Source: Halichondria panicea (taxonomy: Eukaryota > Porifera > Demospongiae > Suberitida > Halichondriidae). From it: a DNA stretch of 64,000 nucleotides. The stretch is from the NCBI RefSeq assembly GCF_963675165.1, contig NC_087388.1:5523047-5587046 (forward strand), in the 5' to 3' direction. The position numbers were made by a program, and so were the translations under genes. The notes under the pieces were generated by a model. It was given only the letters and a program-made list of their open reading frames with translations, was not told the origin of the DNA and did no database searches. Shown piece after piece: positions 1-38,009 of this stretch (the stretch's first letter is position 1; each line of letters starts with the position of its first letter).

Positions 1-911
1 CAGACAGAACGACAGAGCCAATGTGAAGCTGCCCTACAAATGGATGGCCATGGAGAGTCTCAACGATGCCATATTCACAGAAAAAACTGATGTGGTGAGT
101 CAGTGCATGATCACAAGCTCTATAACTCAGTAATAGCTTTATTTCGTGAACACGCTCTATCTAACCTCAACCCCTAATTTGTGTCTGAAATACGTTTTCC
201 TTTCATAATCATTGTTACTTGTCGTCCATGTGCCCATGCAGTGGTCGTATGGTGTGACTGTGTGGGAAGTCTTCAATGGAGGACGGACCCCCTACCCTGC
301 TGTGGACCCACACTCCCTCATCCAGCTGCTGGGAGAGGGGCGGAGACTAGAGAAACCTCTCAACGCAGCCTGTTCCGCCGAAATGTGAGTGTACACTCTC
401 TGAGTTGAGTATCGTAGCAGTTGCATTGAGCTAGTTGTTGTGTTGGGTAGACTGAGATTTGGAATTACCATTATGTTCCAACTGACTGTACATCCCTCTA
501 CACTCACTCAGTTCTGAAGTGATGCGTCAGTGTTGGAGGGAGGACCCAGAGGAGAGACCAACCTTCTCACAACTGTCCTCCACTGTGGACAAGTTACTGA
601 CATCTATTGCTGGCTACACTGAGCTCGGTATGGTGCTACTGAACACAGTTCAAGAGGTGGAGCAGCTCAGTAAGTGCATAATTAAAAGATAGTATGATAC
701 TATAAATAGCAGCTCTTAATGAATACTTACTTAGTGTAGTATGCTAAGACATGCTAAAAATCATTATTCATTCCATGCTTTTACTGCAGAATGTGACAAT
801 GTACCTTCACCTACTGAAGACGCTAATCGTTATGTCGATGGTCCACCAGGTCACCCTCTAGCATTCAAAAACAGAATGTACGAAGAAGAATTTACTGCAA
901 CAGACGATTAA
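1..911 (+). CDS. Receptor tyrosine kinase, gene A, 3' end only (C-lobe and tail)
   Basis: The gene enters from the left edge. Exons, from splice sites and from alignment to genes C and D: <1-94, 242-384, 512-669, 790-911 (TAA at 909-911). They encode the activation segment end ([12 protein letters not shown]), the alpha-F region ([19 protein letters not shown]), the RP-containing end of the C-lobe ([15 protein letters not shown]) and a tail of about 40 residues. Exon lengths and phases equal those of the complete genes. The tail begins KCDNVPSPTED, with Cys where gene D has Tyr, so the YDNV motif is absent. No disabling change is visible, but most of the gene lies outside the window. The 3' flank is nearly identical to that of gene C, so A and C are recent duplicates. 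Confidence 0.85.
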
Positions 912-1437: not shown

Positions 1438-1800
1438 CTTACGTTTTCTGCTGTATAGGGTCGGCTGCTCTGGTTGTCATGGTAACCTGGACGCATCAAC
1501 CACCCACTGAGCAACATATTGAAACAAATTTCAAGTATCATTTCTTTCTGTCAACAATCATTGTTATACTCTATATGCATGCAGGTCTGTTCTCTTTGTC
1601 AGATGTTCAGAGCATGGTGTGTGAGGTGAACAAGATGCAGAACTTTGACCATCCTCGCGTCATGTCTCTAATTGGGGTGTGTCTCGATGCTGGCCACGGG
1701 ATTGCCATAGTGATGCCATATATGGCCAACGGGAGCCTTTTTGACTACCTCAAGAAAGAGAGGGATAATCTGGAGCTGGACGATGACTGTGAGATTGATC

Positions 1801-1842
<42 letters not shown>

Positions 1843-3386: not shown

Positions 3387-6300
3387 ATGGCTATATTAGT
3401 AACTCTCCTTGCTTTGTTTCTGCTGCAAGGAGCAGCTTATTCTCAATCACCCTCCTTTGATTTCATTTCAGCTGAAAATCTCGGACTGCAAGTGGACTCC
3501 ACTGGGAGAACATTCCTTGCTGCAGACAACTACTTGTATAGACTGAATGCTCAGCTAATACAAGAGGAGAGAGTTTATCTAGGAGCTAATTTTTATGTCA
3601 TTAATGAAGGACTTGCCCTGAGCTCTACTGGGATGTTGGTGGTGTGTTTAGAGGATCTCTCTTGCTCTGTCTACAATGCAAGCAACCTCAGTGCTGGTCC
3701 CATTAGGAGTGTCAGTAATGCTATAGCAGGAGATTTTTACTTCGGAGCAGCTTTGTTTATGTCAGGAGACGCTTTCTACACTGGAGCAATGACTGATGAA
3801 GGACAGAGAATGGTACTGCAACAATTCGGAGAGGGGTTCAATAGATCGTCCAACAACAACAATCCATCAGACACGCGTAATGAACTGGTTTTTGGAATTA
3901 GTTCGTTTACGCGACAATTCTATGCATATGGTGGTTTTGTGAGTGGTGGATTTTCATATTATGTTGTCGTCGACTCTGAACCTGCTGATACACGAGCTAT
4001 AAGACTGCTACGTGTTTGCAACCTGTTTAATTGTGGAGGCCAAAGTACCTGTGGAGTGACTGCTTTGTATGAACTGGGAATCAATTGTAGCTTTCAGTCG
4101 ATCACTGAAGATACTCATGTGTGTGCAGTGTCATTAGTGGAGGACTTCAGTGGAATATCTGGACCCACTGCTGTGGTAACTATTTGCTTTGGCAATACTA
4201 ACTCTATTTGTGTGGTCAATATTACTGCTGTCAATGAAGCTATGGACGCTAAATATGACTCATGTATTGTGTCACGCACTGTTGGAGAAGAAATTGGTTT
4301 AGCATGGAAAACAGGCTCTTCAGAAAGCTGCGATACTCTGCCTCAGCCTCAGGTACACATTTATGTAGCATATACTGGTCTACATCAACAATTGATTCAT
4401 TTTCCAGGATACAGGGGACAGATGTGACACACCCAGTCCAGTCGGCCTTCTCATCCCAAATGGTGGTATTGACATAATAGCACCAGTTCGTATCAATTTT
4501 GGAGTCGACCTTGTCCCTTTTACTTCAGTAGCTGTAAAGGTGGAGCAGTTTTCCTTTGTGTTTGTGGCAACGGATGATTCCAGGATACTAGGAGTAAGTG
4601 AATGCAGTTAGTGTGTAAAATAACGGCATTGTTTGTCTTCACAGTACGATGTCAGTGGTACATCGACCCTGGACACTGATAGCTCATTCTACAATCAGCC
4701 AGTGGCCTCTGATGTATTTTATTTGGCATGGCATGAGGGACTAAACTACATCACAGCAGCCACTGAAGACTCCGTGAGTTAATGCTTGCATGTATGTCCT
4801 ACCCCATCTATCTGCCTCCCCCCTCTGAAGGTGTACCAAGTACCCATAGAGGAGTGTTCCCAGCGTATAAACTGTACCAGTTGTACCAATGACCTTAACC
4901 CGCTGTGTGGGTGGTGTGTGGTGGAGAACAAGTGCTCTCGTCAGACGCAGTGTCAGAATTCCGGTCTCTCCAGAAGATGGATACAGTACAACTGTTTTAC
5001 TATCACTGTTGATCCTATGCAACTTTTCATTGACCCTGCAATTCTTGCTAATGAGGTATGCATTAATGTGACTGTCTGAGGTTATATATATAAACTATCC
5101 TCACAGGTCACGGTGACCCTGCCTAACCCCCTTCCTGGGGAGAACATCTCCTGTCATTTGGCGGACAGTGAAGGACGTTTCCCACCCATCTTAGTACCAG
5201 CTGTTGAGGTCATCCCAGGAACAGTGTTCAGTTGTGATATTGAAGGGCTGGTACCTGACTACCCTGGAGTGACTGCAACCATCAACCTGGGATTTCAGAG
5301 CTCTCTGTTCAATGAGCCATTTAACGTTACCAACCAAGCACTCACAATCTACAATTGCTCAGCAGGGAAAAGGTATAGGTACCTCAACCATATTCATGAC
5401 CTGCTGATCACACTATGAATGTGCAGCTGTAAGGATTGCCTGGAGCCCAACAGTCCGTGTGGATGGTGTAACCTCAACAAGCATTGCAGTGGAACAGCAA
5501 CTCTGTGCAGGAATGCATCTCACTTCCTACAGGTGATAGCTTGATGACCCCTGACTCTCTAATGCCTATATCCCTCTATATAGGTGTCTATATCTACACA
5601 CTTCACAGACCTATGCCCCCTGTTAGATACGGCCCCCTTTGGGGGGCACACTCTACCAGTGAGGGTGGTCCAGGACTTTCTACTGACCACTAGGAACCTG
5701 ATACCAACAGTAAGTCAACATGACCTCTGTACCCTGACCAATCCATGGCTTCCCTATATATAGACGGATGGTTTCGAGTATTCGTGTATTGTGAATGGAG
5801 TTAGTCTGACAGCTCAGTATGAGAACGAGACCTCTATCCTGTGCAATGTGGGCAGTGGAGACGTAAGTGCTAACACTGTAATACAATACAATACAATACA
5901 TTGTATGAACAGTTTCACAATAAAAACCTTTAATTGATTGTGATTTAATTAGCGTTGCATTCTAGTTATCACAATACCATACATGACACAGCTCAACCTG
6001 CCTACTGGTAGTGGTAGCTACTCTGTGGTTGCTACGGTGATATGGTCCGGGAATGGCGTCAACCACCCACTCAGCAGTGTCGCACAACAGACCAACAGTA
6101 CGTACTGCTACACCACCATCACAGTAACTACAATTGGACTAACATTATTTTTATACAACCTCTGTCCACCATATGCCACCTCCTCTATACAGTTACGTTG
6201 TTTGATTGTCATAACTTGGGCAGTGGATGTTCAGAGTGCCTTGCATCCAGACTGGGGTCAGAGTTCACGTGTGGGTGGTGTAGCCTTAGCGACAGCTGTG

Positions 6301-9300
6301 AGGTGTTGCAAGAATGCACCAATGATGTTTTTGTTACTGAGGGGAGAAATTGTCCTACTCCTTTCATCACCTTAATCTCTCCAGAATCTGGTAATTATTA
6401 TATATAATTATACTGACTGCATGCCATGATACTTCCTACATCCTCAGGACCAGTTGATGGTGGTACAGCAATTACTGTGATGGGCACTGACCTCGGAGTG
6501 ACCTTTGCTGACGTTCTGAACGCCACCCTTACATTAGGAGGTGTGGCCTGTACTATCATCAACACTGACTATATACCAGGGAGGCAGTTTGTGTGTGTGA
6601 CCAACAACTTTGGAAGTACAGGCTCCAATGTGTTCACTATGGTCCTGTATGGCAATATAGACGTCAATGTAAACGCCAATCCCTTCATTGCGTTGAATCC
6701 TGTTGTCAGTAGTGTGAAACCGACCTTTGGACCCGTGGCCGGGGGTACCACACTGACTGTGAGGGGTACTGCACTAAGAGTGGGTAACCATGAGAACACT
6801 AGAGTCACTCTGGTCAGTGGAGGGTCAATTTACCCCTGCAACGTATTGTAAGTGGTAGTATAAATTATGTCTGGACAATGTTAAAACCTTTCCTTGCAGA
6901 TCAGTCTTTTCTCAAGAGATTGAATGCATCACTACAGCAGCAAACCTCACCTCCGCTGCAGAGGTGGTGGTTACTATTGATGCAGCTAGACTGGACTTTG
7001 AAGTGTTTTTCACTTACAGTAACAACCCCAATGTAACTGCTGTGCGTCCTAGCAACACCATTCCCAGTGGAGGCATCACATTGACCTTCACTGGAGTGTA
7101 CTTGGATGTGGTAGAACAGCCTGTGTTGAAGATCTACCAGCCAATGGAGGATCCTCTGGTAAGCCAGCAACTATAATTATGTCTGTATTATTTACTCTCC
7201 CCTACAGAGGAGCAACTGCAGTGTTGTGGACAATACAACCATCACATGCTTGACTCCTAGTCTGACAACAACCTCACTGACCCCATTGGACTATGCCCTA
7301 CTGTTTGACAATGTCCCACCTATCACACAAGCACGTTTTCCTATTAGCGTCCAATCAAATCCCTCCAATTTCCGGCTGGAAGGTTCTCAAAAGGTTCCTA
7401 ATGGCACAGAGACCCTCATACGCATTGTGGTACGTCCTACAACTAGTAAACTGACCCTATTGTTATTGTGTGTGTATCCAGGGTGATAATCTCGACTCAG
7501 TGGAGACCAGTGAGATACGAGTGACCGTGGGAGGGGAGGAGTGTGTCAAGACACCCAGTAGCGTAAGAGGGAGTGAATTCATCTGTACTGCCCCCTTGGA
7601 GCCGCCAGGAGGGGAAAACCCAGCCAACATAAATGTGTGTATGACTACAATTATACGTAACTGTGTCACTGTTCACTTCAGGTAACCGTTGGAAGCAACA
7701 TTGCTCAAAAATTGGACCGGCAACTGACTTATACATTTCCTGAGGCAACGGTTCTTGGGCCAACAGTTCCTCTGAGGATCATCATTCCAGTTATTGTTAT
7801 CATAATTATAATGATCGTGTGTGTACTGATGATTGCTATTGTCTGTTTGTATCTGAATTCGAGGAGAAAGTCAGTACCAATTTTTATTCATCAACATGAG
7901 CAAAGGATAGAACTCACGGCTACTGGGTAAGTAATGATATAATTATACTGTTCAATTTGCAAATTAATTTGCTACAGGAAAACTCATGAGGTAGTCGATG
8001 GTAATACTGCACTCGTTAGTAAGTTTTCTTTTCTACACACACATGTATAGTCCCTGTTACATGCCACATATTATATTCAGAATCAGAACTTATTGAGATT
8101 GCTGAGTCCATCCCAGACTCATTCAAAATAGCTGCCTCAAAATTGAAGCTCTCCAGTACTGCGATTGGACAAGGTAAACAAAGATGTGCATTTCACTTTA
8201 TTTATAGGATGTCATTATAATTATGTACAGGTGAATTTGGTGTTGTGTACAAGGGCGTCCTGACAAACTGGAACAAAGTGCCTATGCAGGGGGTGGCCGT
8301 GAAGACATTAAAAGGTTATTATTTTAACAGTATAATTTCATGAACCGTATAGTGGGTAGTTTTCTCGGGGTGGGGGGGGAGGCAGTAGTTTTCGTGGCGA
8401 ATATTTCAACTATTAATAAAGCGACCTGACTACCTTTACCTGTGTGCAAGCAGCAACCACGAAATACACCAACTGACTAATTAAATATTTTGTTTTGCTG
8501 CCCCCTATACAGAGATCACCCGACAATGATAATACACTACACACATCATCTAGCAATATTCATATCTCGTGCATTTATCAACAGCAACCTGCCTAAGGGC
8601 GTACAAGGCGGGGTTATAATTGCTCTAGCATGGAAAAGTTGTGAGATGAATATTAATACACAATGAAACCTTTTGAACACAGAAACTATAAACTCACGAT
8701 TATTTCGCGATCATTCCCTCTATAGACATGTTAACCTAAATTCCGGTCTGCAGTCAGTTATACATTTTCTGTGCCCTAGAGATTCATTTTTCTGCAATTG
8801 TAACACACAACATTTCATTTCATTTCTGATGAGTTAGTTCTTCATTATTTATGCAGGTCTGTTCTCGTTGTCGGATGTTCAGAGCATGGTGTGTGAGGTG
8901 AACAAGATGCAGGACTTTGACCATCCTCACATCATGTCCCTAATTGGAGTTTGTCTCGATGCTGGCCCCGGTGTTGCCATAGTGATGCCATATATGGCCA
9001 ATGGCAGCCTTATTAGATATCTCAAGAAAGAGAGGAGCAGCCTTGAGTTGGACGATGACTGTGACATAGATCAGGTGTGTGTGGTGTAGCGTATACGAGT
9101 AGTAAATAGCTCAGTATCTATGACGACTACCTTTTGGTTTAGAGCATTGTGGTATTAGTGTGAGCATTGTGTGGGTGTCTCAACAGAGAGGTGGGTGGGG
9201 CTGATTACTGTGATCCATGTGTATAGAGAGATGCATTCCCGGTCAAAATAATATATTTCTTTCCTTGACTGCTTAACCAGCCTATAAGATCATCATTCTT

Positions 9301-10958
9301 TTGGCCTTGACCATATTTAATAAGATCCATGCCACAACAGCTTTATATTTATTTCACTATAATTATAGCTATATATATATGCATGCATGCAAACAAAGTG
9401 ACAAAATGTACATAAGTGATAGTTGTAAAACTGATGCTGAAGACTAACAGTGATGGCAGGGAAAGAATGATATTAATCCATAGCTAGATCTAGTTATAAA
9501 CTTAATTGTGTCAGTGTGACTGTTGTGGGGATAATACTGCATGAGTATATATATAGGTGCTTTTTCAGAGCTTGGTAAAAAATCAGAGCACCAATTAACA
9601 ATTTATAAAGAAGTGGTTGCCATTGGTACAGATTCTGGAAGTGAGGAAACTGCTACTAAAGATGTGTCGTCAGATAACACTGGGAATGGCCTACTTGGCC
9701 GAGCAGAAGTTTGTCCATCGAGATCTTGCAGCCAGAAACTGCATGTGAGTGAACTATTTACAGTGTGTTCACAATACTATAGACTAAAATATAAGAATTA
9801 TGCATGCAAAGTTCAAGCCCCACGTTATACTATAGTTGGAGCTTGCATGCGACATATATAATGCATCGATATTGTAAAAATATCACTAACACACTGCATG
9901 GTTAGCATGTTACATGATTGTTTCCGTGAGGTTTCATCTTGTACATTCCTATAGGCTGGACTCGGGAGGGGGTATCAGGGTGGGGGACTTTGGTCTGGCT
10001 GAGGACGTCTATGCTAGCGGCTACTTTAGACAAAACGATCGAGCCAATGTGAAGCTGCCCTATAAATGGATGGCCTTGGAGAGTCTCAACGATGCCATCT
10101 TCACAGAGAAAACTGATGTGGTGAGTCAGTGCATGATCACAAGCTCTATATAACTAATAGGAATACACACTGTTTAACCCAGACCCCTACATTGCTTCTA
10201 AAATACATTTTCCTTTCATTCATTTTGCTAGTGGCAATAATTATTGTTACTTGTCGTCCATGTGCTCAGTGGTCATACGGTGTGACTGTGTGGGAGGTCT
10301 TCAATGGAGGACGGACCCCCTACCCTGCTGTGGACCCACACTCCCTCATCAAGCTGCTGGGAAAGGGGCAAAGACTAGAGAGACCTCTCAACGCAGCCTG
10401 TTCCACCGAAATGTGAGTGTACACTCTCTGAGTTGATTATCATAGCAGTTGCATTGAGGTAGCTGTTGTGTTGGGTAGACTGAGATTTGGAATTACCATT
10501 TTGTTCCAACTGACTGTACATCCCTCTACACTCACTCAGTTCTGAAGTGATGCGTCAGTGTTGGAGGGAGGACCCAGAGGAGAGACCAACCTTCTCACAA
10601 CTGTCGTCCATTGTGGACAAGTTACTGACATCCATTGCTGGCTACACTGAGCTCGGTATGGTGCTACTGAACACAGTTCAAGAGGTGGAGCAGCTCAGTA
10701 AGTGTATAATTATATAGACATAATTAAGAGTGTACCTTAGTATGCTACTATAAATAGCAGCTCTTAATGCCCATATATGAATACTTATACTTATAGTGTA
10801 TGCTAAGACATACTTATTCATTCCATGCTCTTACTGCAGAATGTGACAATATACCTTCACCTACTGAAGACGCTAATCGCTATGTAGATGGTCCACTAGG
10901 TCACCCTCTAGCATTCAAAAACAGAATGTACGAAGGATTTACTTCAACAGACGATTAA
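3387..10958 (+). CDS. Plexin-ectodomain / MET-like receptor tyrosine kinase, gene C (complete)
   Basis: Exons: 3387-4352, 4408-4593, 4645-4773, 4831-5055, 5107-5372, 5427-5532, 5584-5709, 5764-5862, 5992-6097, 6193-6390, 6448-6847, 6900-7158, 7208-7429, 7482-7634, 7682-7926, 7978-8018, 8081-8173, 8231-8314, 8857-9074, 9632-9744, 9955-10120, 10270-10412, 10540-10697, 10840-10958. They sum to 4821 nt (1606 aa) with every join in frame. Order: signal peptide 1-19; Sema about 25-427; PSI1 about 430-470 ([12 protein letters not shown]); IPT-like; PSI2 about 591-620; IPT-like; PSI3 about 740-785; IPT modules to about 1147; transmembrane 1180-1205; kinase about 1260-1540. Kinase landmarks: GQGEFG loop, VAVK Lys1298, HRDLAARN Asp1405, DFG Asp1423, activation-loop Tyr1431 and Tyr1435 in DVYASGYF. 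It should bind an extracellular ligand and phosphorylate tyrosines; the ligand is unknown. The tail has KCDN in place of YDN. Start chosen because the signal peptide follows directly. Confidence 0.9.
8343..8400. repeat. Degenerate single end of a CCGTATA element in gene C intron 18
   Basis: CCGTATAGTGGGTAG resembles the start of the TA-flanked elements at 18261 and 39183. No clear matching right end was found in the 542-bp intron, so this is probably a truncated copy. Confidence 0.4.
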
Positions 10959-12948: not shown

Positions 12949-15900
12949 ATGTTATTAGTAACTCTCTTTGCCTTGTTTTTACTGCAAAGAGCAGGTCATT
13001 CTCAATCATTCTCCTTCCAATATTCTGCCAATCTCCCAGGACTGCAAGTAGACTCCACTGGGAGAACATTCCTTGCAGCAGACATCTACCTGTATAGACT
13101 GAATGCTCAGCTACTACAAGAGGAGAGAGTTGATCTAGGAGCTACTGTCATTGACAAAGGACTTGCCCTGAGCTCTACTGGAATGTTGGTGGTGTGTTTA
13201 GAGGATCTCTCTTGCTCTGTCTACAATGCAAGCAACCTCAGTGCTGGTCCTATCAGGAGTGTCAGTAATGCTATAGCCTCAGCAGATCCTGACTTTGGAG
13301 CAGCCATCTTCACGTCAGGAGACACTTTCTACACTGGAGCATCAACTGGTGCAGGAGAGAAGATGGTACTGCAACAATTTGGAGAGGGGTTCAATAGATC
13401 TTCCAACAACAATCCATCAGGCACACGCAATGCGCTGGTTTTTGGGGTTAGTGATTTTAGACGACGATTCTATGCATTCGGTGGTTTTGTGAGTGGTGGA
13501 TTTGCCTATTATGTTGTCGTCGACTATCGACCTGCTACTGCACAAGCTATAAGACTATTACGTGTTTGCAGCATGCCTGATTGTGGAGGCCCAAGTACCT
13601 GTGGAGTGACTGCTTCGTATGAACTGGAAATCAATTGTGGCGTTCAAACGATCACTGAAGAGATTTGTGTGTGTGGAGTGTCATTAGTGGAGGACTTCAG
13701 TGGGATATCTGGACCCACTGCTGTGATAACTATTTGCTCTGACATTACTAATTCTATTTGTGTGGTCAATATCACTGCTGTCAATGAAGCTATGGATGCT
13801 AAATATGACTCTTGTATTGTGTCACGCACTGTTGGAGAAAAAATTGGCATAGCATGGAGAACAGGCTCAGATAACTGCTCTACCCTGTCTCAGCCTCAGG
13901 TTAGTTATTGTAGTCTGGGTCTGGTATGCTTCTAACATAACATCATTATCCAGATAACTGTGGACAGATGTGACACACCCAGTCCAGTTGGCCTTCTCGT
14001 CCCAAATGGTGGCATTGACATAATAGCACCAGTTCGTATCAACTTTGGAGACAGCCCTGTACTCCTTGCTTCAGTGGCTGTGAAGATGGAGCAGTTTTTC
14101 TTTGTATTTGTGACAACTGATAATTCTAGGATAATAGGAGTAAGTGCTGCATGGTTGAGTCAGCTACATTTATTGTGCATTGGCTCCAATAGTATGATGT
14201 CAGTGGTTCATCTACCCTGGATGCTAATAGCTCATTCTACAATCAGCCAGTGACCTCTGATGTATATCATTTGTCATGGCAGGAGGGACTGGACTACATC
14301 ACAGCAGCCACTAGAGACACTGTGAGTTAATGCTTGTATGTCTTCCTCTATGAACCCCTCCCCCCTATGAAGGTGTACCAAGTACCCATAGAGGAGTGTT
14401 CCCAGCATATAGATTGTACCAGTTGTACCAATGATCTCAACCCGCTGTGTGGGTGGTGTGTGGTGGAAAACAAGTGCTCTCGTCAGACGCAGTGTCAGAA
14501 CTCCAGTTTCTCCAGTAGATGGATACAGGACAATGCCAACTGTTTTACTGCTGCAATTGTGGAGCCAATGCAATTTGTGCTTGACCATGCGATTCTTGAT
14601 AATGAGGTAAAGCTAGTGTAGTTGTGTCTGATATCACAAACAGACCCCACAGCTCACGGTAACCCTGCCTTACCTCCTGCATGGAGAGAACATCTCCTGT
14701 CATCTGGCAGACGATAAAGGACGTTTCCCACCCATCATAGTACCAGCTGTTGGGGTCACCCCAGGAACAGTGTTTAGTTGTGATATTGAAGGACTCGTGG
14801 TACCTGACTACCTTGGAGTGACTGCAATCATCAACCTGGGCTTTCAGAGCTCTCTGTCCAATGAGCCATTTAACATTACCAACCAAGCACTCACCATCTA
14901 CAATTGCTCAGCAGGAGAAAGGTATTACCCATATCAGGAGCACTGCCCAGATTCAATTTCAAAACACCCAGATCAGGTTCCTCTAATTCCTCTAATTAAG
15001 CACATGATCAACTCCCCCTTGAAGGAAATTTATACAAATCGTTTATGTTTCCTAATAGACCGCATTGTGGGTTATAGCTTTTTAAACTGGCTTTCTTTAG
15101 CTGTAAGGATTGCCTCGGGCCCAACAGTCCGTGTGGATGGTGTAACCTCAACAAGCAGTGCAGTGGAACACCAGCTCCTTGCAGGAATGTATCTCACTTC
15201 CTACAGGTGATAGCTCAGTGACCATGGTGACCAGTAACTCCATTTGTATACATGTAGGTGTCTGGAGGCAATGATTTCACTGCTGAGTGCCCCCTATTGG
15301 ACACACCCCCCTCTGGTGGGTACACTCAACCAGTGAGGGTGGCCCAGGACCTTCGACTGACCACCAGAAACCTCATTGCTCCCGTAAGTCACATGATTTG
15401 TACGTCGTTTTTCCATGACTTCCCTCTCCATTAGACGGATGGCTTTGAGTACTATTGTGTTGTGAATGGAGTTAGTCTGACAGCTCAGTATGAGAACAAA
15501 AGCTCCATCCTGTGTACAGTGGGCAGTGGACAAGTGAGTGTTGCTTACATAATATACTTACTTAATGGGGCTTGTAATTGTATTTACCGTATTTACTTAA
15601 TTAAACGCCCGGGCGTTATTTCATATCGAAGTCTGTAAAAGGGGCGTTTAAACGAGATGGGTGTTTATTCGAAATGGGCGTTTATTGGCCATGTCTACTC
15701 CAAACTCTTGCACAGCAGCAGTTATTATGCTCTTTTTGGCTGCTGCCACAGCTCTCAGATTAAATCTTAAGTATAGGAGTGGTGTTTCTCCCTCTGTGTC
15801 TCTCTCTCTGCCATCATATATATTCTATGCTGCCATGCTTACAACTGGTTCCACCTGCTACTTCAGCTCCACCCACAGTGCCACGCCCATACATGGGCGA

Positions 15901-18900
15901 TTATTTAAGTTGGGCGTTTATTGACAAAGACAGAGCTTTTACTGGGCGTTTAAACGAGATTGGCGTTTAATCAAGTAAATACGGTACTTAATTATATGCC
16001 TTATTTGCTTGTAAACTGCGAGTTTCTGTGTGCAGCTGACACTTTCTGCTGGAGCCAATAGTTCCCCTGTGGTTGCCATGGTAACCTGGGCGGGAAATAA
16101 TATCAGCCACCTACTGAACAACACTCTGCAACTAATTTCAGGTATACAATTATCTGTCAACTGTCATCTCGACATATTTAATGTTTGCACTACGTCCGGA
16201 CTCAGTTCATCCCCCCTCCCCCTCTCCACACACACACACACACACACAACACAGTGACGCTGTATGATTGTCGTGATTTGGCTAGTGAATGTTCGGAATG
16301 TATTGCAGTCAGAATGGGGTCAGAGTTCGCATGTGGGTGGTGTGGGGGTAGTTGTGAGGTTATGCAAGAGTGCTCCAATACTTTCATTACTGAGGGGGAC
16401 AGTTGTCCTGCCCCTGTCATCAACTCATTCACTCCAATGTCGGGTAAGAATCAAGTGAGCGTATGTTCACCTCTCTTGTTAGGTTATTTAAAGCAGTATA
16501 TTGGTATACTGCTATATACGAGCTTGTACTAGTAACAACTTAAGCCTTTGATCTTGCAACCATAATTACGATACAATTAATCCTGGCTTGCACACCCAGG
16601 ACCAGTTGAGGGTGGTACAGCAATCACTGTGATTGGTACTGACTTCGGAGGAACTTTTGCCGAGATTCAGAACTCCACCCTTACATTAGGAGGCGTGGCC
16701 TGCACTGCCCTCATCACTGGTTACATACCATGGCACCAGTTTGTCTGTGAGACCACCAATTTTGTAACTGGAGGGTTAAAAGTCTTCTCTCTAACCATTG
16801 GCTCTAGAGTAGCCATTGAAAACGGTGGCTCCTTCACTGCAGTGAATTCTATTGTCAGCAGTGTGACTCCGACCTTTGGACCCATGGCCGGGGGAACCGA
16901 AGTGGTTGTGAGGGGGACTGCACTGAACGTGGGTAACCAGGAGGATACTAGAGTCTCTTTGGAGATCAATGAGTCAAGCTACAACTGCAACATAACATTG
17001 TCGTAAGTGACTGTTGTATTAAGTTTACTAACAATGCAAACCTCTTTTCTGCAGATCTATCGAGTCTAAAGAGATTCGGTGCAGAACCTCAGCAGCAAAC
17101 CTCACCTCCGATGCTTTAGTGGTGGTGTACATTGATGCTGCCAGAGTCAGCAATCCAGGAGTGGTCTTCAGTTATCGTAACAACCCCAACGTGACTACCG
17201 TGTTTCCTAGCAACACTATTTCTAGCGGAGGCATCAAACTGACCTTTACTGGAGTGAACTTGGACGTGGTACAACAGTCTGTGTTGGAGGTCTACCAGCC
17301 GATGGGGGCTCCTCCAGCAACTACCGAACAACACCATGTAATTTTCGACTTTTTTGTGAATAAAATTTTTGCAGTGAGCATTTTACAGAGAGCAACAAGT
17401 TCCACCTATCAAAAATATGTATCGTAAATATTTAAAAATACAATTTTTTGGGGGACTGAGCATCATTCCAGGAAAATTGTTATTTATGTCATGACGGTAT
17501 TACATAATGTACTTACTCTCCTGCAGAGGAGCACCTGCAGTATTGTGGACAATACCACCATCACATGCTCAACTCCTAATCTAACAACAACCTCACTGAC
17601 CCCATTGAACTATGCCCTGATGTTTGATGATGTCCCACTCGCCACACACGCAAGCCTTCCCATCAGCGTCCAATCAGATCCCTCCAATTTTCGGCTGGAG
17701 GGTTCGCAAGAGGTCACCAGTGGTACAGCGACTCTCATACGCATTGTGGTATACGTTTTATCCTGTAATACTGACCATACTGTTACCGTGTGTGTATCCA
17801 GGGTGATAATCTCGACTCAGTGGAGACCAGTGAGATAAAAGTGATCGTGGGAGGGGAGGAATGTGTCAAGACATCCAGTAATTCAAGAGGGAGCGAATTT
17901 ATCTGTACCGCCCCCTTGGAGATCCCAGGAGAGGAAAACCCGGCTATTATACGAGTTGAGTAAAACTATATAACTTAACTGTGTTACAGTGCTATTTAGG
18001 TGAACGTTGGGAGCAACATCGCTCAAGTATTGGACCAGCGACTGACCTACATAGTTCTTGTGGTGGAGGTTCCTACGGTGGAGGTTCTTGAAGCGGCAGT
18101 TCCCCTGGAGGTCATCATCCCGAGTGTTTTGGGGGGGGCTGTAGTGGTAGTGTGTGTAGTACTGATCATTTTTGTCTGTTTTTGTCTGAACTCACGAAGG
18201 AAGACCGTGTCCATCACTATGCATGAACAGATGATGGAGCTCGTGGCTAATAGGTAATTACCGTATGGCGGGTATATTTCGAGGGTATAAAAATGTTCGT
18301 GGTTTTCGCTGATCAAACATCTACCACAAACATTTGTACCCACGAATTTATCAATGCATGCTGCAGAAAGGCTGCTATTCCGCGAAAATTAAATCGCTAT
18401 AGCATAGTAGCAGTGATCGACTGTTTCTAACGGGTCATTCTGCGAAAGTTTATACCCTCGAAATATACCCGTTATACGGTATAATACTTATAGTCCAGCT
18501 GTCCAATTATGTTACAGGAGAACACAGGAGGAAATATTACCTGTGGATGGCAATACTGCACTCGTTAGTAAGTTTCTATGATTTTTATACATCCATGCAT
18601 GCAGTCTATACTATATTCACTGACTTATAATTATACAGAATCAGAACTTGTTGAGATTGCCGAGTCCATCCCAGATTCATTCAAAATACCAGCCTCCATA
18701 TTGAAGCTCTCCAGTACTGCAATAGGACAAGGTAAAGAAAGATGTGCATTTCACTTAATTTATGGGATGTCACTATACAGGTGAATTTGGCATTGTGTAC
18801 AAGGGCGTTCTGACAGACTGGAACAAAGTACATATGCAGGGGGTGGCCGTGAAGACACTAAAAGGTTTAACAGTACAATTTTATAAATTCAATCTGTTGT

Positions 18901-21694
18901 CAGCCATCAAGTTCATAAATTAGTTGTCATGGAATTCACTTATACCAAATTTACTGCCCCCCAGAGACTACAATTTCTGCTGTGTTCTTAGAGTTGATCA
19001 CTGAGTTCTTCATTGTCTACCTTGCAGGTCTGTTCTCGTTGTCGGATGTTCAGAGCATGGTGTGTGAGGTGAACAAGATGCAGGACTTTGACCATCCTCA
19101 TGTCATGTCCCTGATTGGGGTGTGTCTTGATGCTGGCCCCGGTGTTGCCATAGTGATGCCATATATGGCCAACGGCAGCCTCATTGGATATCTCAAGAGA
19201 GAGAGGAGCAGCCTTGAGTTGGACGATGACTGTGAGATTGATCAGGTGTGTGGTATAATTATTACAATACATAATACAAAAGGAAGACACACAAAGTTGT
19301 TGTTTTTTACAATGCAGATATATACAAGTAACAAAGTGTAAAGTTGTTGTAGCTTCTCTGTGTTCTAAACGGCTGAATACAGCGACGAAAGTAAATAGTG
19401 AATATCTTGCTGTGGCGTAGGCGGAGGGGGGCTGACGGGGCTAGAGTCCCCCCCCCTTTTGTGCTACATCAACTCCAACTTAGCTTGAATCACTGTGATC
19501 TGTCGATCTATTCTGCAGTACTGCATGCATAGTTAATAGAATAATGTCATGTAATTGAAATGTGGTCAAGGCCATCTGATGCGCATGCTTACCGCTGAAG
19601 AAAAGTGATGACCTAGATAAAATTCTATGAAACCCATTAGTGCCTATAATTATGCTCAACTGATTTGGGCCCTGCCCTTCCCAAATTCCTGGCTATGCCA
19701 TCAGTTCATTCCGATACCTAATACTTATGGAAATCTATCGATTCTATAAAATGTCTAGAGCCAAATTATTGTGTTCCCAAGTTTTATGGCATTCTAATAA
19801 GCACTTTTATGAATTGATTTATGTATATATGGGAAATGAGTAGAAATATTACAAAAATGTAACAAGGATGTAATTAAAAACTAGACCACATGATTGTGTC
19901 AGACCTCCTCTGGTCTCAACAGAGAGGTATAATCTCTGTAGGGAAGCCATTATAGTGTTTGTGCAAGGGACAGTACTGAGCGATCTCAATAGAGAGGTGG
20001 TTTCTTTTATATGAAGATAAGTGGTAGAGAGACCTATATGTTTAGGGTGAGCAGCATTCTCACGATCAACTATATTATAGCGACTACCTGAATGAGTATG
20101 GATATAAGTTGTATACCTTTAGCATGAGCAGCATCTAGAGTGTCTCAAATAACACCACCAATAACTGTGTGAGTGAATTGTCACCAATTTTCTCCACAGA
20201 TTCTTGTTGTTAGGAAGCTGCTACTAAAGATGTGTCATCAGATAGCACTGGGAATGGTCTACTTGGCCGAGCAGAAGTTTGTCCATCGTGATCTTGCAGC
20301 CAGAAACTGCATGTGAGTTGGCAATTGGTATAGTGTGTACCAAGATACATCAGTATAATAGGCTAACTGTAAACACACATTGCTTATAAAATTGAGAGAG
20401 CTTTCATTTATTAATCTTATATATATATCAGCCTCAGTTAATAGCATACTTGCTATAGATATGTTCACTTGCTAGAATATACATGTGGCATTGTTCGTTT
20501 CATATCGTGTACATTCCAATAGGCTGGACTCGGGAGGAGGTATCAGGGTGGGGGACTTTGGTCTGGCTGAGGACGTCTATGCTAGTGGTTACTTCAGACA
20601 GAACGACCGAGCCAATGTGAAGCTGCCCTACAAATGGATGGCATTGGAGAGTCTCAACGATGCTATCTTCACAGAGAAAACTGATGTGGTGAGTCAGTGC
20701 ATATAGTAGATCCTAAGATCCTAAGCATAATTATACTCTCTCTAACAAATTGTGTGAATGCAAGTACCATGTAATAGACCCCAAAATTGCTTCTGAAATA
20801 CACATTTTACAATTCATTTTGGTGGTAGCAACTGTGTTATATACTTGCTGTCCATGTGCCCAGTGGTCGTATGGTGTGACTGTGTGGGAGGTCTTCAATG
20901 GAGGACGGACTCCATACCCTGCCGTGGACCCACTGTCCCTCATCCAGCTGCTGGGAGAGGGACGAAGACTAGAGAAACCTCTCAATGCAGCCTGTGCCAC
21001 CGAGATGTGAGTATACACTCTCTGAGTTAATTACTATTATAGTAGTTGCAGTGCCGAGCACTATATTTAACATGCCCCCCCTCCCCCTGTGGTGCTCAGG
21101 GGCATGTAGATTGAAATTTGGGATTATTGTTTGGTTCAACTGATGGTACATCCCCTTATCCTCACACAGTTCTAAACTGATGCGTCAGTGTTGGAGGGAG
21201 GACCCAGAGGAGAGACCAACCTTCTCACAACTGTCCGCCATTGTGGAGAGGCTACTGACATCCATTTCTGACTACACTGAACTCAGTATGGTACTACTGG
21301 ACACCAGTCAAGAGAAGGAGCAGCTCAGTAAGCGTAGACTCAGCTGTTTGAAACTTTTATCTTCTGTTATTAAAAACATTTCGAAGGTCTTATATTAACA
21401 TAATACATGCATATTATTCTACGTATAGTTTAAAAGACTGTATGTCGTCGTCTACTATAAATGCTCACAAGATCATTAGATATGATTATCCACTGTTATA
21501 AACATGTTTAATAATAATTATGTTAGCTTGTGTTACGATTTTTTTTTACTGCAGAGTATGACAATGTACCCACACCCACTGAAGACGCTCATCGCTATGT
21601 CGACGCTCCACCTGGTTACCCTCGAGCATTCAAGAACAGAGTGTACGAAGAAGTTACTGCAACAGGCAGTTATAAATTAGCCACTATAGGTTAA
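12949..21694 (+). CDS. Plexin-ectodomain / MET-like receptor tyrosine kinase, gene D (complete, one altered splice site)
   Basis: Exons: 12949-13899, 13954-14139, 14193-14321, 14373-14606, 14653-14921, 15101-15206, 15258-15383, 15435-15533, 16036-16141, 16255-16443, 16600-17002, 17055-17337, 17527-17748, 17802-17954, 18000-18253, 18518-18567, 18639-18731, 18781-18864, 19028-19245, 20200-20312, 20523-20688, 20864-21006, 21170-21327, 21555-21694; total 4875 nt, 1624 aa. Same domain order as gene C. The usual exon 12 donor has been deleted; the next GT (after 17337) keeps the frame and adds about eight residues, and I used it. The membrane segment is more Gly/Val-rich, preceded by a small VEVPTVEV duplication. 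Kinase motifs are intact ([21 protein letters not shown]). The tail starts [15 protein letters not shown] fits the pYxN pattern bound by Grb2-type SH2 domains, comparable to the YVNV docking site of MET. Confidence 0.85.
15587..15984. mobile_element. 398-bp CCGTATTTACTT element on TA, gene D intron 8
   Basis: Ends CCGTATTTACTT and AAGTAAATACGG are perfect inverted repeats flanked by TA on each side. Subterminal GGGCGTTTA motifs recur in both orientations. No protein-coding frame is recognisable. TA targets suggest the Tc1/mariner superfamily (inference). Confidence 0.8.
18261..18479. mobile_element. 219-bp CCGTATGGCGGG element on TA, gene D intron 15
   Basis: Starts CCGTATGGCGGGTATATTTC and ends with the near complement GAAATATACCCGTTATACGG; TA on both flanks. 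It begins seven bases after the exon 15 donor, leaving the splice site intact. Same family as 39183-39388 and 63493-63724. Confidence 0.85.
19410..19704. mobile_element. Possible CTGTGGCG element, gene D intron 19
   Basis: CTGTGGCGTAGGCGGAGG at the left and CCTGGCTATGCCATCAG at the right are imperfect inverted ends, with the G/C-tract interior seen at 2426-2805. No clear target duplication, so the limits are uncertain. Confidence 0.35.
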
Positions 21695-22101: not shown

Positions 22102-22430
22102 ATGGCTATGTTAGTGGTTCTCCTGGCTTTTTTTCTGCTGCAAGGATCAGCTCATTCTCAACCACCCTCATTTGATTTCATACTGGACTGCAAGTGGACT
22201 CCACTGGAAGAGCATTCCTTGCTGCAGGCAACTACCTGTATAGACTGAATGCTCAGCTAATACAAGAGGAGAGAGTTGATCTAGGAGCTAATATCATTGC
22301 CAAAGGACTTGCCATGAGCTCTTCTGGGATGGTAGTGGTGTGTTTAGTGGATCTCTCTTGCTCTGTCTACAATGCAAGCAACATCAGTACTGGTCCTATC
22401 AAGACTATAATTTCCGGTATAATTTACTAA
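22102..22430 (+). pseudogene. RTK relic E (signal peptide and start of Sema)
   Basis: ATG at 22102 opens a signal peptide like gene C (MAMLVVLLAFFLLQGSAHSQ). A deletion near 22185 then shifts the frame; the other frame continues as [20 protein letters not shown] and on to [10 protein letters not shown] before homology stops near 22405. A stop follows at 22428-22430. No other receptor exon lies downstream. This is a 5' truncated duplicate; the rest was never copied or is lost. Confidence 0.85.
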
Positions 22431-23760: not shown

Positions 23761-26700
23761 TTAAGTTATGTTCATCTCTTCCCTGAGGCCGTATGCACTG
23801 TTCTCAGTTGTTAGAGGGTTCCTTAATGGAAGGTTACCATAGCGATGAGGGGCTTCAGTGAGCATGGGGACATAGTCATATTCTGCAGTAAAATAAATTT
23901 GACACATTGCTGACGTAAGCCTTAGGTAATACAGTTTAAATGTCTGCTACGACTCAAGGAAGTGCATTTCACATCAAGAATTCAAGTATGTCATACTACG
24001 GCACTCTCAAACCGCATTTTAAGTGGGTGCATAGGTGTAGTGGTTAATAGTTAAAAATGATATCAGCATACACGCATGTGGTAATTAATTTGTATACCTC
24101 CAGCCCACATTTCATGGCTAACAGTTTACACAACTGAAGCATATATTAACTTAGTGAAGTCAGTCCTAGATGTAGTAAGAATGGAATGTGCGTGGGAGTT
24201 GCATACTCCTACTATAATATACAACTCTTGCCCTCGGGCTCGAGTTGTATTAGCAGTACAATTCCTGGGACCGAGGCTACACGAGGGCATGAAGTAATAA
24301 CCTACAATTATACTATAATAATTCCAAGGATCAAATTTCAAGGATCATTACCTGATGGACCAATCAGATGGCAGGTTTATACCCGGCTGCATTGGGATTT
24401 GCCACGCATCAATACACTCTAGTTTGTTATAAAAGCAATGCAATTAAGCTAATAGGCTGGTGAGTGGTGCGTGGTGCTCTAGGTTGAATCAGTCTGCATC
24501 CTGGGTAATATCGATAATCATCCAGACATGTTTGGTACAAGATTTTGTAGACACTTTTGTCTGGCTTGCTAAAAAGTTAAAAAGAGTTTTTGTGGATGTT
24601 TAGTATTTCATATGGTAAAATGTTGTAGTTTAAGGTGACACAATTATTTTCACAGGTAGATTTGTCTGCTGTTTAAGCTCATTTTGCTGGTATTAAATTC
24701 TGTTAAATTCTGCTCAAGTTCATAGTATTTTTCTATAGTTCTATACAATGAGATTCATTGCCTCAAATCATAATCCATAGTTATAACAAATTAATAAATC
24801 AATGCATGTGGAATATAAATAGGTTGAAGTTTGAAAGTGAGTTCCCATGGTAGGGAAGTAGATGCGTAGCATAGCATAATTATATAGCATAGCCAGGATA
24901 TATACACTCATACTATGGTCATAGGAATTTATTGCAACGTAAACCACCTCGCCCTCGGGGGATTGGTGAGTTTACTGCCAGAACCATAGATGAGTGAGTG
25001 TAACACTATAACATAATTATACATTCGGGGGGTCAAGGACTATTTTAATTAAAAACCGGGAAGCAATTCGGATCCGGGCTCACTGCATGTCTTGCTCTTG
25101 AAGCTTCTATACTCACTTTAAACAAACGTAGCCTCTTTCTTTACTGCTTGAATGCTGAAAAGTTCTAACCTGTCCTAAACTCTTGTCTGGTTTCCTGGAG
25201 TAGATTGATACTATTGGATTTTTGCATATATCCTCGTTCTTGCACATGCTACTGATTCTATAACGAAATTAGTGGTTTTAAACGCATGCCATGCAAAAAT
25301 TTGGTTTCCATCGTTTGTTTGCAGAATTTTGAGGGCAGCCAATAATTATAGCCACTTGCACAGGGCCATAAGAGTTCATTTACAATAGTATACAACGTTG
25401 TACACTATCAACTTTCTTTGTAAACTATGAAGGAAACTATTGTAGATGAACTAAAATTCAACAACATTGTAAACTATGATGTACACTCGCAAGTACAAAC
25501 ATAGTTTACAAGCTGTAAACTACCACTTCTGGCCCTGTGTTGTTTTGCACATCATAACTTTTTCTGTGCATCCCATCACGAACTACAAAAGATATCATTA
25601 TTATTATAGACCTACTCTTAAATCCAAGGTATTAATTAACGAATCAACTTTTGCATGGTAAGAAAACATGTACTACAGGTTTGCATATAATGCCTCTTTA
25701 CCTTGACTGGCGGCATGGAAACGATCGCATTACACTTCTATATAATTTTGCTTAGTCTTCCCTTTCATATGGCTTATAAACAACCAATGCCGAGGGCATA
25801 GTTATTGGCGCTGGACAGAAAAAACGGTTAAACAGACAGCTACTAATCGCCTATTTTGGCACGGGTTGATAATTGCATATTTAGACGTAGAAATTGAACC
25901 TTGACCCCCGAATGATATAGCAATTGAAGGTACAAAGTACATATACACTGGTCTATGGCATACAGGTATAATAAAAACTGGGTAACAAATTTGAGTTTAC
26001 ACTTACTGAGCTCCTCCTCCTCTCGACTGGTGTCCACTAGCACCATACCGAGTTCAGTGTAGCCAGCAATGGATGTCAGTAACTTGTCCACAATGGAGGA
26101 CAGTTGTGAGAAGGTTGGCCTCTCCTCTGGGTCCTCCCTCCAACACTTACGCATCACTACAGAACTGTGTAAGAGCAGAGGGAATGTAATGGGGGGGGGG
26201 GGCATTGCACACAGTACTCAGCTATAATTAATATATATATATATACATGTATATATTGCTACAATTGAGGGAACATTAACATTTCGGTGGCACAGGCTGC
26301 GTTGAAAGGTCTCTCTAATCTCCGCCCCTCTCCCAGCAGCTGGATGAGGGACAGCGGGTCCACGGCAGGGTAGGGGGTCCGTCCTCCATTGAATACCTCC
26401 CACACAGTCACACCATACGACCACTGGGCACATGCATGGACAACAAAATATTTATTAATTGTCCACTTGTGTTTGGTCATAATTATTTCAATTTACCACA
26501 AGAGTGTGGAGCATGTGCATGATTAAGGCCATAATGATCATGAATCTACCATGCACCGACTGACCACATCGGTTTTCTCTGTGAAGATGGCATCGTTGAG
26601 ACTCTCTAAGGCCATCCATTTGTAGGGCACCTTCATATTGGCTCGGTCGTTCTGTCTGAAGTAGCCTTTAGCGTAGATGTTCTCAGCCAGACCGAAGTCC

Positions 26701-28796
26701 CCCACCCTGATACCCCCTCCCGAGTCCAGCCTATAGTGTATAAGATGAAACCACACGGCATGCAATCATGTATACATGCTATAATCAGTGTGCAACTTGT
26801 GATGCTGTTTACAATAATTATATCAATGCCATTGAATATGTTTCAGTGAATGCTTCAAATTGTAAAAATTAATGGTGTGTTTTTAAACTTTGGATGTATT
26901 GATATCTTCCTGTACACACATGCAGTCGATGGGTTCACTCACATGCAGTTTCTGGCTGCAAGGTCGCGATGGACAAAATGTTGCTTGGCCAAGTAGGCCA
27001 TTCCCAGTGCTATATGATGGCACATCTTTAGTAGCAGTTTCCTCACTTCCAAAATCTGTGGAGAATGATAATGACAGTTGACCAAACAATTTAATTGTGC
27101 TCAGACCACTCCGTATTGTCTCTATAATTATATACAATGCTCACACATTGACCTTACTTAAGAGACCACCTATCTATTGAAACCACTCAGTACTGTCCAT
27201 AAAATATTTGCATGCATTATGTATCCCATAATTATGTCCACACTATGGTTATATGCCGTATAGGTAATTAAAAGCTGTTCTTGCTATATATCTATAACGA
27301 TAACACACACACCTGATCAATCTCACAGTCATCGTCCAGCTCCAGATTATTCCTCTCTCTCTTGAGGTAGTCGAAAAGGCTCCCGTTGGCCATATATGGC
27401 ATCACTATGGCAATGCCAGGGCCAGCATCGAGACATACACCAATCAGGGACATGACGTGAGGATGGTCAAAGTCCTGCATCTTGTTCACCTCACACACCA
27501 TGCTCTGAACATCCGACAACAAAAACAGACCTGCAGAGTAGTTATGAACTAACTTATCAGAAATGCAATGTTGCTTGTATTGTATTGTTAGCAGTTTCCA
27601 GAAATTGTAATTCTATATATAGGGGACAGCGAAATAAACCTAGCATGAGAACCAAACTCCATGATGACCACGTTATATTGGAGAAAAGTTTCGTTAGTGT
27701 CAAGTTTCATGTAAATTTCAATTGGTGTACCTTTTAGTGTCTTTATGGCCACCCTCTGTACAGGTACATTGTTCCAGTCTGTCAGGACACCCTTGTACAC
27801 AATGCCAAATTCACCTTTATAGTGACATCTCAAAAATTTAGTGTAATGAACATATTTTTTGTTTACCTTGTCCAATTGCAGTTACTGTACTGGAGAGCTT
27901 CAATATGGAGGCTGGTATTTTGAATGAGTCTGGGATGGACTCAGCAATTTCATCGAGCTCTAATTCTGTATAGGTCAGTAAAAGTTAGACTATACACATA
28001 ATTATACTAAGATAAGAAACTTACTAACACGTGCAGTATTTCTATCCCCTACCATCTGAGTTTTCCTATAATGTAACTGTAAAAGTGACATAACTTAACA
28101 GCTATACATCACTCACTCTGTAGCCACAAGCTCCACAACTTGTTGATGCATGACAATTGACGCTGACTTCCTTCGAAAGTTCAGATACAAGCAGACAATA
28201 ACAATCATCAGTACACAAACGATCAGTACGAAAATGATTACAATAACTGAAATGATGATCTCCAGTGGAACCGTTGCCCCAGGAACTGCTACCACAGTAA
28301 CTGTGTAAGCCAGTTGCCGGTCCAATACTTGGGAGATGTTGCTCCCAATGGTCACCTGACAGGACAGTGACACAAAGTTATATTATTTTATGCTTTTAGC
28401 ATTCCCCTATAATAATAACTAGGAGAATGCAGAGCATGTTTGGGGCGAGGAGCAATTTTGTATTTGTTGCACAGTGATTTTAAGGTACAATGTGGTAATT
28501 TTAAGTATATTTATGAATCGAATGAAGAATCAGTGATTGTGAATAACCGAGTAGTCTGATGTAGATACGACTTCCCTGTGCCAGCTGTATACCCGTGACA
28601 ATTATTCTGAGTGGTGTAGGGTTGTTGTCTTTGACTGTGTATGCTGTAACATCAAGTGGACTTACTAAGAGTGAAACATAATTATCTATGAGTGAACGTT
28701 CAGCACGAAAGAGCTGGCTGTACAAACTAAGCAAGGAGATATTATCACTTTTTGCTGGACCCAAATTACTATACTGTCAGTGTAAATAATCCTTGA

Positions 28797-28827
<31 letters not shown>

Positions 28828-37800: not shown

Positions 37801-38009
37801 CTATTAATGATAGAAGATCCTAGATCAACTCTCGCCTCTTGAATTAGTTGAGCATTCAGTCTATACAGGTAGTTGTCTGCAGCAAGGAATGTTCTCCCAA
37901 TGGAGTCCACTTGCAGTCCTGGGACATTAGTAGAGGCAATAGAGAATGATTGAGAATAAGCTGCTCCTTGCAACAGAAACAGCGCAAAGAGAGCAACCAA
38001 CATAGTCAT
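23761..38009 (-). CDS. Plexin-ectodomain / MET-like receptor tyrosine kinase, gene F (complete, inverted)
   Basis: Exons in transcript order: 38009-37050, 36995-36810, 36739-36611, 36551-36321, 36261-35975, 35803-35698, 35641-35516, 35462-35364, 31081-30976, 30903-30712, 30658-30256, 30207-29949, 29892-29671, 29613-29461, 28355-28117, 28065-28025, 27965-27867, 27814-27731, 27530-27313, 27055-26943, 26730-26565, 26423-26281, 26164-26007, 23882-23761; 4842 nt, 1613 aa, all joins in frame. Domains as in gene C. Differences: GTACCAATA-type insert VISVP in exon 5, two extra codons before the Gly-loop (exon 17), activation segment ENIYAKGYF, and KVPYKW instead of KLPYKW. Intron 8 is 4.3 kb and packed with mobile elements; intron 23 is 2.1 kb. 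The last exon gives a tail [11 protein letters not shown], unlike C and D. An in-frame upstream ATG exists at 38108, but the start at 38009 (MTMLVAL) matches gene G and opens the signal peptide. It is the only receptor on the minus strand. The distant last exon is the least certain join. Confidence 0.85.
28798..28826. repeat. (ATT)n microsatellite in gene F intron 14
   Basis: Perfect ATT triplet run of about ten units between the exon 15 and exon 14 sequences. Confidence 0.9.
31284..31540. mobile_element. Harbinger-like element, 33-bp perfect inverted ends, TAA duplication
   Basis: Both ends read GGCCACTCCAAGTGATA... inward and are identical over 33 bp. TAA precedes (31281-31283) and follows (31541-31543) the element. 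A TWA triplet target duplication is the signature of PIF/Harbinger elements. The 190-bp interior has no coding frame, so it is non-autonomous. The perfect ends suggest recent insertion. Confidence 0.85.
31634..32674. mobile_element. Long inverted-repeat element (about 360-bp arms), gene F intron 8
   Basis: The left arm, 31634-31995, and the right arm, about 32318-32674, are inverted copies with scattered mismatches (AATCGACCATGATTGTTG / CAGCAATCATCGTCGATT; GGCTGCAATGGCATTCC / GGAATGCCATTGCAGCC). The spacer of about 320 bp has CA/GT tracts. Related single arms occur at 23522-23600, 50394-50560 and 53550-53600. No protein is encoded. The family is unknown to me. Confidence 0.75.
32706..34696. 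mobile_element. Foldback-type element with minisatellite arms, gene F intron 8
   Basis: Inverted arms 32706-33784 and 34104-34696 share, from outside in, TAACCAATCCTA, a unique block (TTTCTAATGACGTCATAG), a GTAGCAGCAGTAGCACTG-type array (32792-33474; 34155-34604 in complement), and an inner block (GTGCATGCATAACTCC). GTGATTCTGG flanks the element at 32696-32705 and 34697-34706. Tandem-repeat arms and 9-10 bp duplications are features of foldback (FB/Galileo-like) transposons. The left arm also has a 161-bp higher-order repeat (32943 and 33104) and about 260 bp of extra sequence. The open frames in the arrays are repeat artefacts. Confidence 0.75.
34736..35010. mobile_element. 275-bp CAGTGGCGGATCC element, 5-bp duplication ATGTT
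   Basis: Starts CAGTGGCGGATCCAG and ends CTGGATCCACCCCTG. ATGTT lies at 34731-34735 and again at 35011-35015. A related repeat at 53611-53650 reads AAAAATGTTCATCATCATG without the insertion and serves as an empty site. The termini are hAT-like. Confidence 0.85.

Follow-up and report, generated by a model that had tools for sequence, protein, structure and literature searches.

Predicted receptor tyrosine kinases with plexin-type ectodomains form a multigene array in the sponge Halichondria panicea

The 64,000-nucleotide stretch of Halichondria panicea DNA analyzed here (the window; NC_087388.1, positions 5,523,047 to 5,587,046) carries four predicted genes, C, D, F and G, in which a plexin-type ectodomain is followed in frame by a membrane helix and a tyrosine kinase (Table 1). 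Gene C was rebuilt exon by exon. Its frame is open throughout, with AG/GT at all internal borders and a single terminal stop. A Pfam scan, which covered C and G whole and the first 1200 residues of F (D and the cytoplasmic part of F lay outside it), gave a kinase (PF07714, 5e-80) with four TIG and three PSI stretches in C, a kinase with three TIG and two PSI in G, and four TIG and two PSI in F. For C the scan was run on a model of 1619 residues; exon 9 was then moved from 5953 to 5992 by homology, giving the present length. Residues 473-1080 of Plexin-A2 align continuously with the part of gene C that follows the Sema head, from PSI1 to IPT5 (E 5e-58), whereas MET aligns with the ectodomain only in part (query 315 to 708, E 8e-32). 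As the post-Sema residues align unbroken to Plexin-A2 and partly to MET, the plexin order PSI-IPT-PSI-IPT-PSI-IPTs is considered real in the predicted protein. An earlier sequence-only reading of this DNA had proposed Sema, PSI-IPT-PSI-IPT-PSI, further IPTs, a membrane helix and a kinase in one frame; this order holds in C, and D, F and G repeat its exon order. An ectodomain lacking PSI2 or PSI3 was also looked for, and all three PSIs with the intervening IPTs were found to be covered by the one Plexin-A2 alignment of C.

Table 1. Predicted genes, gene parts and remnants of the receptor family in the window (positions counted from its first nucleotide)
Feature	Position	Strand	Description
Gene C	3387-10958	+	24 exons, 1606 aa; ATG 3387, stop 10956-10958
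Gene C, exons 1-3	3387..4773	+	Sema-like propeller and signal peptide (by eye); open exons, top profile matches to plexins only, borders in common with plexin locus (exact: exons 2-3)
Gene C, exons 4-10	4831..6390	+	PSI1-IPT1-PSI2-IPT2-PSI3; three Pfam PSI stretches, unbroken Plexin-A2 alignment
Gene C, exons 11-14	6448..7634	+	About four IPT/TIG modules; four Pfam TIG stretches (best one alone placed), Plexin-A2 alignment
Gene C, exons 15-17	7682..8173	+	Putative membrane helix (hydrophobic in translation), juxtamembrane segment, kinase start
Gene C, exons 18-23	8231..10697	+	Tyrosine kinase; PF07714 5e-80, dN/dS 0.20
Gene C, exon 24	10840..10958	+	C-terminal tail, stop
Gene D	12949..21694	+	24 exons, 1622 aa; exon layout as C
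Gene F	23761..38009	-	24 exons, 1613 aa; exon layout as C; intron 8 ~4.3 kb
Gene G	44714..53199	+	23 exons, 1564 aa; exon layout as C; stop in exon 23
Preceding array gene, last four exons (21-24)	2..908	+	Sema exon upstream of window, C12:5516613-5517569
Truncated copy H	39452..42740	+	Membrane and kinase exons, no ectodomain detected; membrane exon matches in two frames
Sema first-exon remnant	22102..22421	+	
Isolated kinase exon-19 copy (remnant)	1587..1802	+	

For the Sema head, the Pfam profile PF01403 gave no match in C, F or G, so that of the domain models named by the sequence-only reading those for kinase, TIG and PSI were recovered (C and G; TIG and PSI in the scanned part of F) and that for Sema was not. 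Pfam was dropped as Sema evidence, and a sequence profile and the exon structure were used instead. A profile of the Sema and PSI1 region built from C, D, F and G matched 30 PDB sequences at E<=10. The best 17 (E<=1.2e-4) are all plexins, and neither MET nor RON is among the 30. Plexin-A1 was matched at 8e-16, the Plexin-B1 match covers profile positions 145-456, and the strongest portion of the plexin matches comprises the end of the propeller and PSI1. An AlphaFold model of exon 1 alone has a predicted local distance difference test (pLDDT) score of 43. In its Foldseek search, matches 2 and 3 in the PDB are plexin-A2 (probability 1.00); the first match and many others are unrelated chains, and this search counts little. 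Since the exons are shared with the plexin locus described below, and with the profile match and, weakly, the exon 1 model beside them, the predicted propeller is identified firmly enough to be used. Genome-wide, PF01403 matched at E<=0.001 on contigs C15 and C11 only, and on each of them one match adjoins a PSI match; these are candidate genes for semaphorin-like ligands.

The genome (131 Mb, 39 contigs; the window sits on contig C12) was searched with exon 1 of G as query, which returned 29 near-full-length, stop-free Sema first exons, all on C12, plus partial copies. Behind 28 of the 29, a kinase exon 19 of the same strand follows after 4.2-9.8 kb with no other full Sema exon between; the sole Sema exon without a kinase is that of the plexin locus (C12:6736206-6737153). 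At least 33 copies of kinase exon 19 were counted on C12, five of them without a full Sema; kinase counts are lower bounds, as the best candidates alone were scored. Exon 1 is 65-100% identical among the 28 receptor tyrosine kinase (RTK) copies. Compared with C, exon 1 of D, F and G is 75-79% identical and the kinase 89-91% (D and G compared). Five further array genes were modelled: all 24 exons are present in L033, L034, L035 and L037 (the last exon being short and poorly placed in the latter two), and L036 is without exons 5 and 24. The exon order is identical in all nine modelled genes, apart from the lack of exon 24 in G and L036 and of exon 5 in L036. The model builder took only borders in the phase of C, and equal phase is hence partly built in; most borders of D, F and G show a shift of 0 from their predicted place, which the builder did not impose, and many exons agree in length. 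The possibility that adjacent ectodomain and kinase genes were merged by a builder that demanded the phases of C and worked without RNA evidence was considered. With the same exon order in nine of nine genes, mostly exact borders, 28 Sema-kinase pairs and a frame open throughout in C, D, F and G, such an artefact appears extremely improbable. A second gene about 64 kb upstream (C12:5462471-5468176) is near-identical to C (exon 11 99%, exon-1 branch length ~0.004); it is a recent segmental duplication, with assembly duplication possible.

Selection was analyzed in 36 pairs of the nine array genes. The median ratio of non-synonymous to synonymous divergence (dN/dS) was lowest in the kinase (0.20), 0.35-0.45 in the PSI/IPT and membrane segments and highest in Sema (0.54), and in no pair did the ratio of any of the six regions exceed 1. 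Exon 16 alone (13-15 codons) gave a median dN about equal to the median dS (0.99) and is too short to read. The values for Sema and kinase argue that the architecture is not due to chance, and since the median lies below 1 in all six regions, both halves of the predicted receptor are maintained by selection. Positive selection in Sema is not evident. The regional dN/dS is below 1 and the corresponding ratio of differences (pN/pS) among the 28 exon-1 copies is 0.62 overall; six 15-column windows of exon 1 exceed 1, five of them overlapping or adjacent, with a maximum of 1.38 at G residues 238-252, which is suggestive at most.

The kinase had been called MET-like, which proved too narrow. The motifs on which that assignment was based were rejected as MET markers, as one is also present in MER and KWMALES is present in EGFR. 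Best single-domain profile scores were 225 bits for MER, 217 for MET, 210 for AXL, 208.5 for RON and 206 for RET; an EGFR chain that appeared as the top match was set aside as a summing artefact of its two kinase domains (157 bits each). Identity of the kinases of C, D and G is ~42% to MER and ~41% to MET. In a tree of eight array kinases (L037 was left out for too few columns) and eight human kinases, of which the INSR and FGFR1 sequences are provisional, the array grouped with MET/RON and AXL/MER at 88/92. A position with RET was rejected (p 2e-5) and one with INSR was borderline (p 0.042). Between MET/RON and AXL/MER the tree did not separate: support for MET/RON is 58/0, the approximately unbiased (AU) test leaves AXL/MER at p 0.4, and long branches meet. 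By its sequence, the array kinase falls with MET/RON and AXL/MER and cannot be assigned to either.

Receptors of related make-up, in which a membrane helix links a complete plexin-type ectodomain to a tyrosine kinase, were defined as Met-LPs in a survey that found them in annelid, mollusc and starfish (Junqueira Alves et al., 2019; PMC6374515). In that survey the group is called polyphyletic and separate origins are argued, Mets and both Met-LP groups are placed inside bilaterian plexin clades, and plexins appear as older and widespread. The starfish has four Met-LPs, one of them beside a Plexin-B gene (PMC6374515). The survey's section on Amphimedon names no Met or Met-LP, and the architecture is not reported there from sponges; it describes four plexins (Plexin-A1 to -A4) with short cytoplasmic parts without conserved domains, beside two full plexins, A5 grouping with A1-A4 (PMC6374515). 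Further context is given in PMC8662651 and PMC5793068. In the open-access literature, searched at title and abstract level, no plexin-ectodomain kinase of a sponge was found.

A plexin locus on the same chromosome bears on the origin of the array ectodomain. At C12:6.73 Mb, counterparts of all 12 RTK ectodomain exons (1-12) were found. Both borders lie exactly where the RTK exons predict in 10 of 12, for which the local AG and GT frequencies give a chance of ~0.005 per exon, and the exact length of C is kept in 6 of 12; the deviation is 12 bases in exon 1 and 18 in exon 11. Identity of the plexin to the 28 RTK copies is 61-74% in exon 1, and to the 13 other rows of the stalk tree (L006 left out, L009 without exon 10) it is 57-70% in exons 10-12. 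In exon 11 the plexin groups with the type seen in C, F and G (70% identity to C) and not with the D type and the dispersed copies, which are 52-62% identical to C (two partial matches excluded). Exons for the plexin RBD and GAP follow on the same strand past a run of 5000 N behind plexin exon 12, and the simplest reading is that ectodomain and RBD/GAP exons at 6.73 Mb form one continuous plexin gene. Genome-wide, matches to PF08337 and PF20170 at E<=1 are confined to C12:6.48 and 6.73 Mb; no plexin RBD or RasGAP-like domain was found by Pfam in the C or G proteins. The second plexin locus (6.48-6.51 Mb) is 19-41% alike in most matching stretches and ~29% in the best PSI1 matches, one 26-residue IPT stretch reaching 46-50%, and was judged too distant to inform a root for the ectodomain trees. 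Upstream of it, L003-L005 (C12:6.482-6.507 Mb) include two more PSI-containing stretches, possibly further plexin or semaphorin genes.

Because of the common exon borders and the exon 1 identity of 61-74%, the RTK ectodomain most likely descends from the animal's own plexin, and the same two observations argue for a fusion within this lineage and not for a common ancestor of plexin and MET. The sequence-only reading had offered two origins for an architecture that it saw as intermediate between the families, an ancestral form or a domain swap by which plexin ligands would have gained a direct kinase output. Its plexin-type ectodomain on a kinase is borne out by the Plexin-A2 alignment, the plexin profile matches and the kinase in frame, and the domain swap is supported by the exon 1 identity and borders shared with the local plexin locus. 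The terms 'intermediate' and 'ancestral form' are not supported for a sequence that close to a plexin on the same chromosome with common borders. If a plexin ectodomain with a kinase predated MET, and MET/RON and the bilaterian Met-LPs derived from it by loss of PSI2/PSI3, the grouping of the kinase with MET/RON and AXL/MER and the recurrence of the architecture in bilaterians (PMC6374515) would be accounted for. The identity to the own plexin is closer than so ancient a split should leave, the borders match, and Mets and both Met-LP groups lie inside bilaterian plexin clades (PMC6374515), which makes such a form very unlikely.

We consider it probable that the array genes are RTKs of the Met-LP kind, in which the ectodomain exons of the resident plexin were joined within the lineage to a MET/TAM-like kinase and the product was then duplicated to at least 28 genes. 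Four points weigh against this. The 5000 N between plexin exon 12 and the RBD/GAP exons could hide a kinase, PF01403 is silent on the Sema head, and the presence of ectodomain and kinase in a single transcript is predicted from gene models. The fourth concerns the ectodomain tree, which together with the kinase tree had been proposed by the sequence-only reading and was built, unrooted, from exons of the animal's own genome: in it plexin exon 1 attaches among the array genes, beside L033 (support 83). Such a position, with the 28 RTK exons ranging from 65 to 100%, would also result if recombination or gene conversion had placed copies of RTK ectodomain exons in the plexin, which would then be the recipient, and the low likeness of the second plexin locus (~29% in its best PSI1 matches) would agree with it. 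This reverse direction is unlikely in view of the greater age and wide distribution of plexins (PMC6374515) and of L033 being the array gene nearest to the plexin in both tested ectodomain regions (74%, 70%), as a single source would give.

The family is a real, constrained and strongly expanded set of predicted Met-LP-type receptors, with at least 28 Sema-headed genes on one chromosome. Like Met-LPs, the array genes are predicted, from gene models and the conserved exon layout, to encode a complete plexin-type ectodomain together with a membrane helix and a kinase; they differ in their setting in a sponge genome, in number (at least 28 against one to four) and in the exon borders that they share with a plexin locus of the same chromosome. 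Sema, PSI, IPTs, membrane helix and a kinase of the same broad group are shared with MET/RON, but three PSIs are present instead of one, and the Sema and PSI1 profile misses MET at E<=10. (MET has Sema and PSI followed by four IPTs; PMC6374515.) The whole ectodomain is that of plexins, down to the exon borders of the resident locus, with a kinase where plexins have RBD and RasGAP. Amphimedon Plexin-A1 to -A4 are likewise multiplied sponge plexin ectodomains, but their intracellular parts are described as short and devoid of conserved domains. Ectodomains of AXL, MER and TYRO3 consist of immunoglobulin (Ig) and FN3 modules; the array kinase is as similar to that of MER as to that of MET, whereas in the ectodomains of C and G only TIG and PSI were seen by Pfam.

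Eight kinase relatives from other chromosomes were fetched. Five of them on C2, C4 and C5 (L006-L009, L013) have the stalk in common with the array from exon 7 on (L009 from exon 11 on; exons 11 and 12 were not found in L006). No Sema, PSI1 or PSI2 match was found in the 10 kb read at these five, little upstream sequence being covered at L006, L007 and L009. In two of the five, IgGFc-binding-type or Sushi exons lie upstream: L013 carries, besides a Sushi-like exon, one of >500 aa with relatives in L010 and L011, and Sushi-like exons are also present in L008 (the one scanned: 2.7e-11). The copy of the head exon in L011 was scanned by Pfam and gave IgGFc_binding at 1e-37; another exon is Calx-beta-like by eye, with no Pfam match. 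By their sequence, related kinases elsewhere in the genome carry the stalk of the array under other heads. In L010, L011 and L012 the modelled matches are confined to the membrane-proximal and kinase exons. L010 (C1) and L011 (C11) combine IgGFc-binding-type and Sushi-type head exons with array-related kinases and form a branch of their own within this RTK superfamily. In a sponge, semaphorin-pathway genes are reported to respond to lipopolysaccharide (PMC8242945), and IgGFc-binding, Calx-beta and Sushi are among the domains listed in a figure legend of the same paper (PMC8242945).

These heads raise the possibility, compatible with the plexin fusion, of a recognition repertoire akin to an immune or allorecognition family, in which one stalk-kinase chassis carries many exchangeable heads for the sensing of self, neighbours or microbes. 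At least 28 Sema-headed genes, the Sema exons with the highest regional dN/dS (0.54), and five loci on C2, C4 and C5 that share stalk and kinase with no Sema detected, two of them with IgGFc-binding-type or Sushi exons, would fit. Positive selection is not clear (pN/pS 0.62 overall, 1.38 in the best 15-column window), and we regard the repertoire as a tentative idea that may well be wrong.

Some further features of the window were noted. Exon 24 tails occur in two versions among C (10840-10958), D (21555-21694) and F (23761-23882), one of them with RYVD; YDN in exon 24 of D fits a pYxN docking motif. The unusually long intron 8 of F contains two minisatellite-like tandem arrays (32793-34601) with periods of 9, 18 and 27 bp, apparently inverted with respect to each other. 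Downstream of G, a Cys-rich open frame (54684-55100, +) shows internal CxGxxSCxxAxITxxN-like repeat units. An open frame of 457 aa at 61852-64000 (+) includes a membrane-like stretch and looks like a coiled-coil membrane receptor; its seven-copy, 87-bp tandem repeat (62290-62895) encodes a repeated NNEIIQELQNQLDNSNQTIQQQI unit, and two Sushi-like frames (by eye) follow it.

For the plexin fusion, we infer its direction, the ligand and the mode of activation as follows. Ectodomain exons of the resident plexin would have been joined in the animal's own lineage to a kinase of the MET/TAM-like group, and duplication of the fused gene would then have filled one chromosome with at least 28 of its kind. 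The Sema head may bind a semaphorin or another cell-surface partner and so gather receptors, whereupon the gathered kinases would phosphorylate one another and their tails in place of the RasGAP action of plexins. More speculatively, and with considerable doubt on our part, a non-bilaterian animal could have made a plexin into an RTK independently and then built from it a modular recognition system, with a common stalk and kinase under at least 28 diverged Sema heads and under IgGFc-binding and Sushi heads elsewhere; the domain-less 'plexins' of Amphimedon would then be members with missed kinase exons. If this is true, plexin-type and immune-type recognition feed one kinase.

What is new is the variant and the setting of the Met-LP architecture, which does not provide a missing link to MET. 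Plexin-kinase fusions seem to have arisen in animals more often than recorded, and a further example from outside Bilateria, in which the likely donor plexin is still present and shares the exon borders, would show that plexin ectodomains were repeatedly plugged into kinases. The array would offer a clean system for what a Sema head does when it drives a kinase, and the swapping of heads would be a concrete case of how the RTK repertoire of sponges grew.

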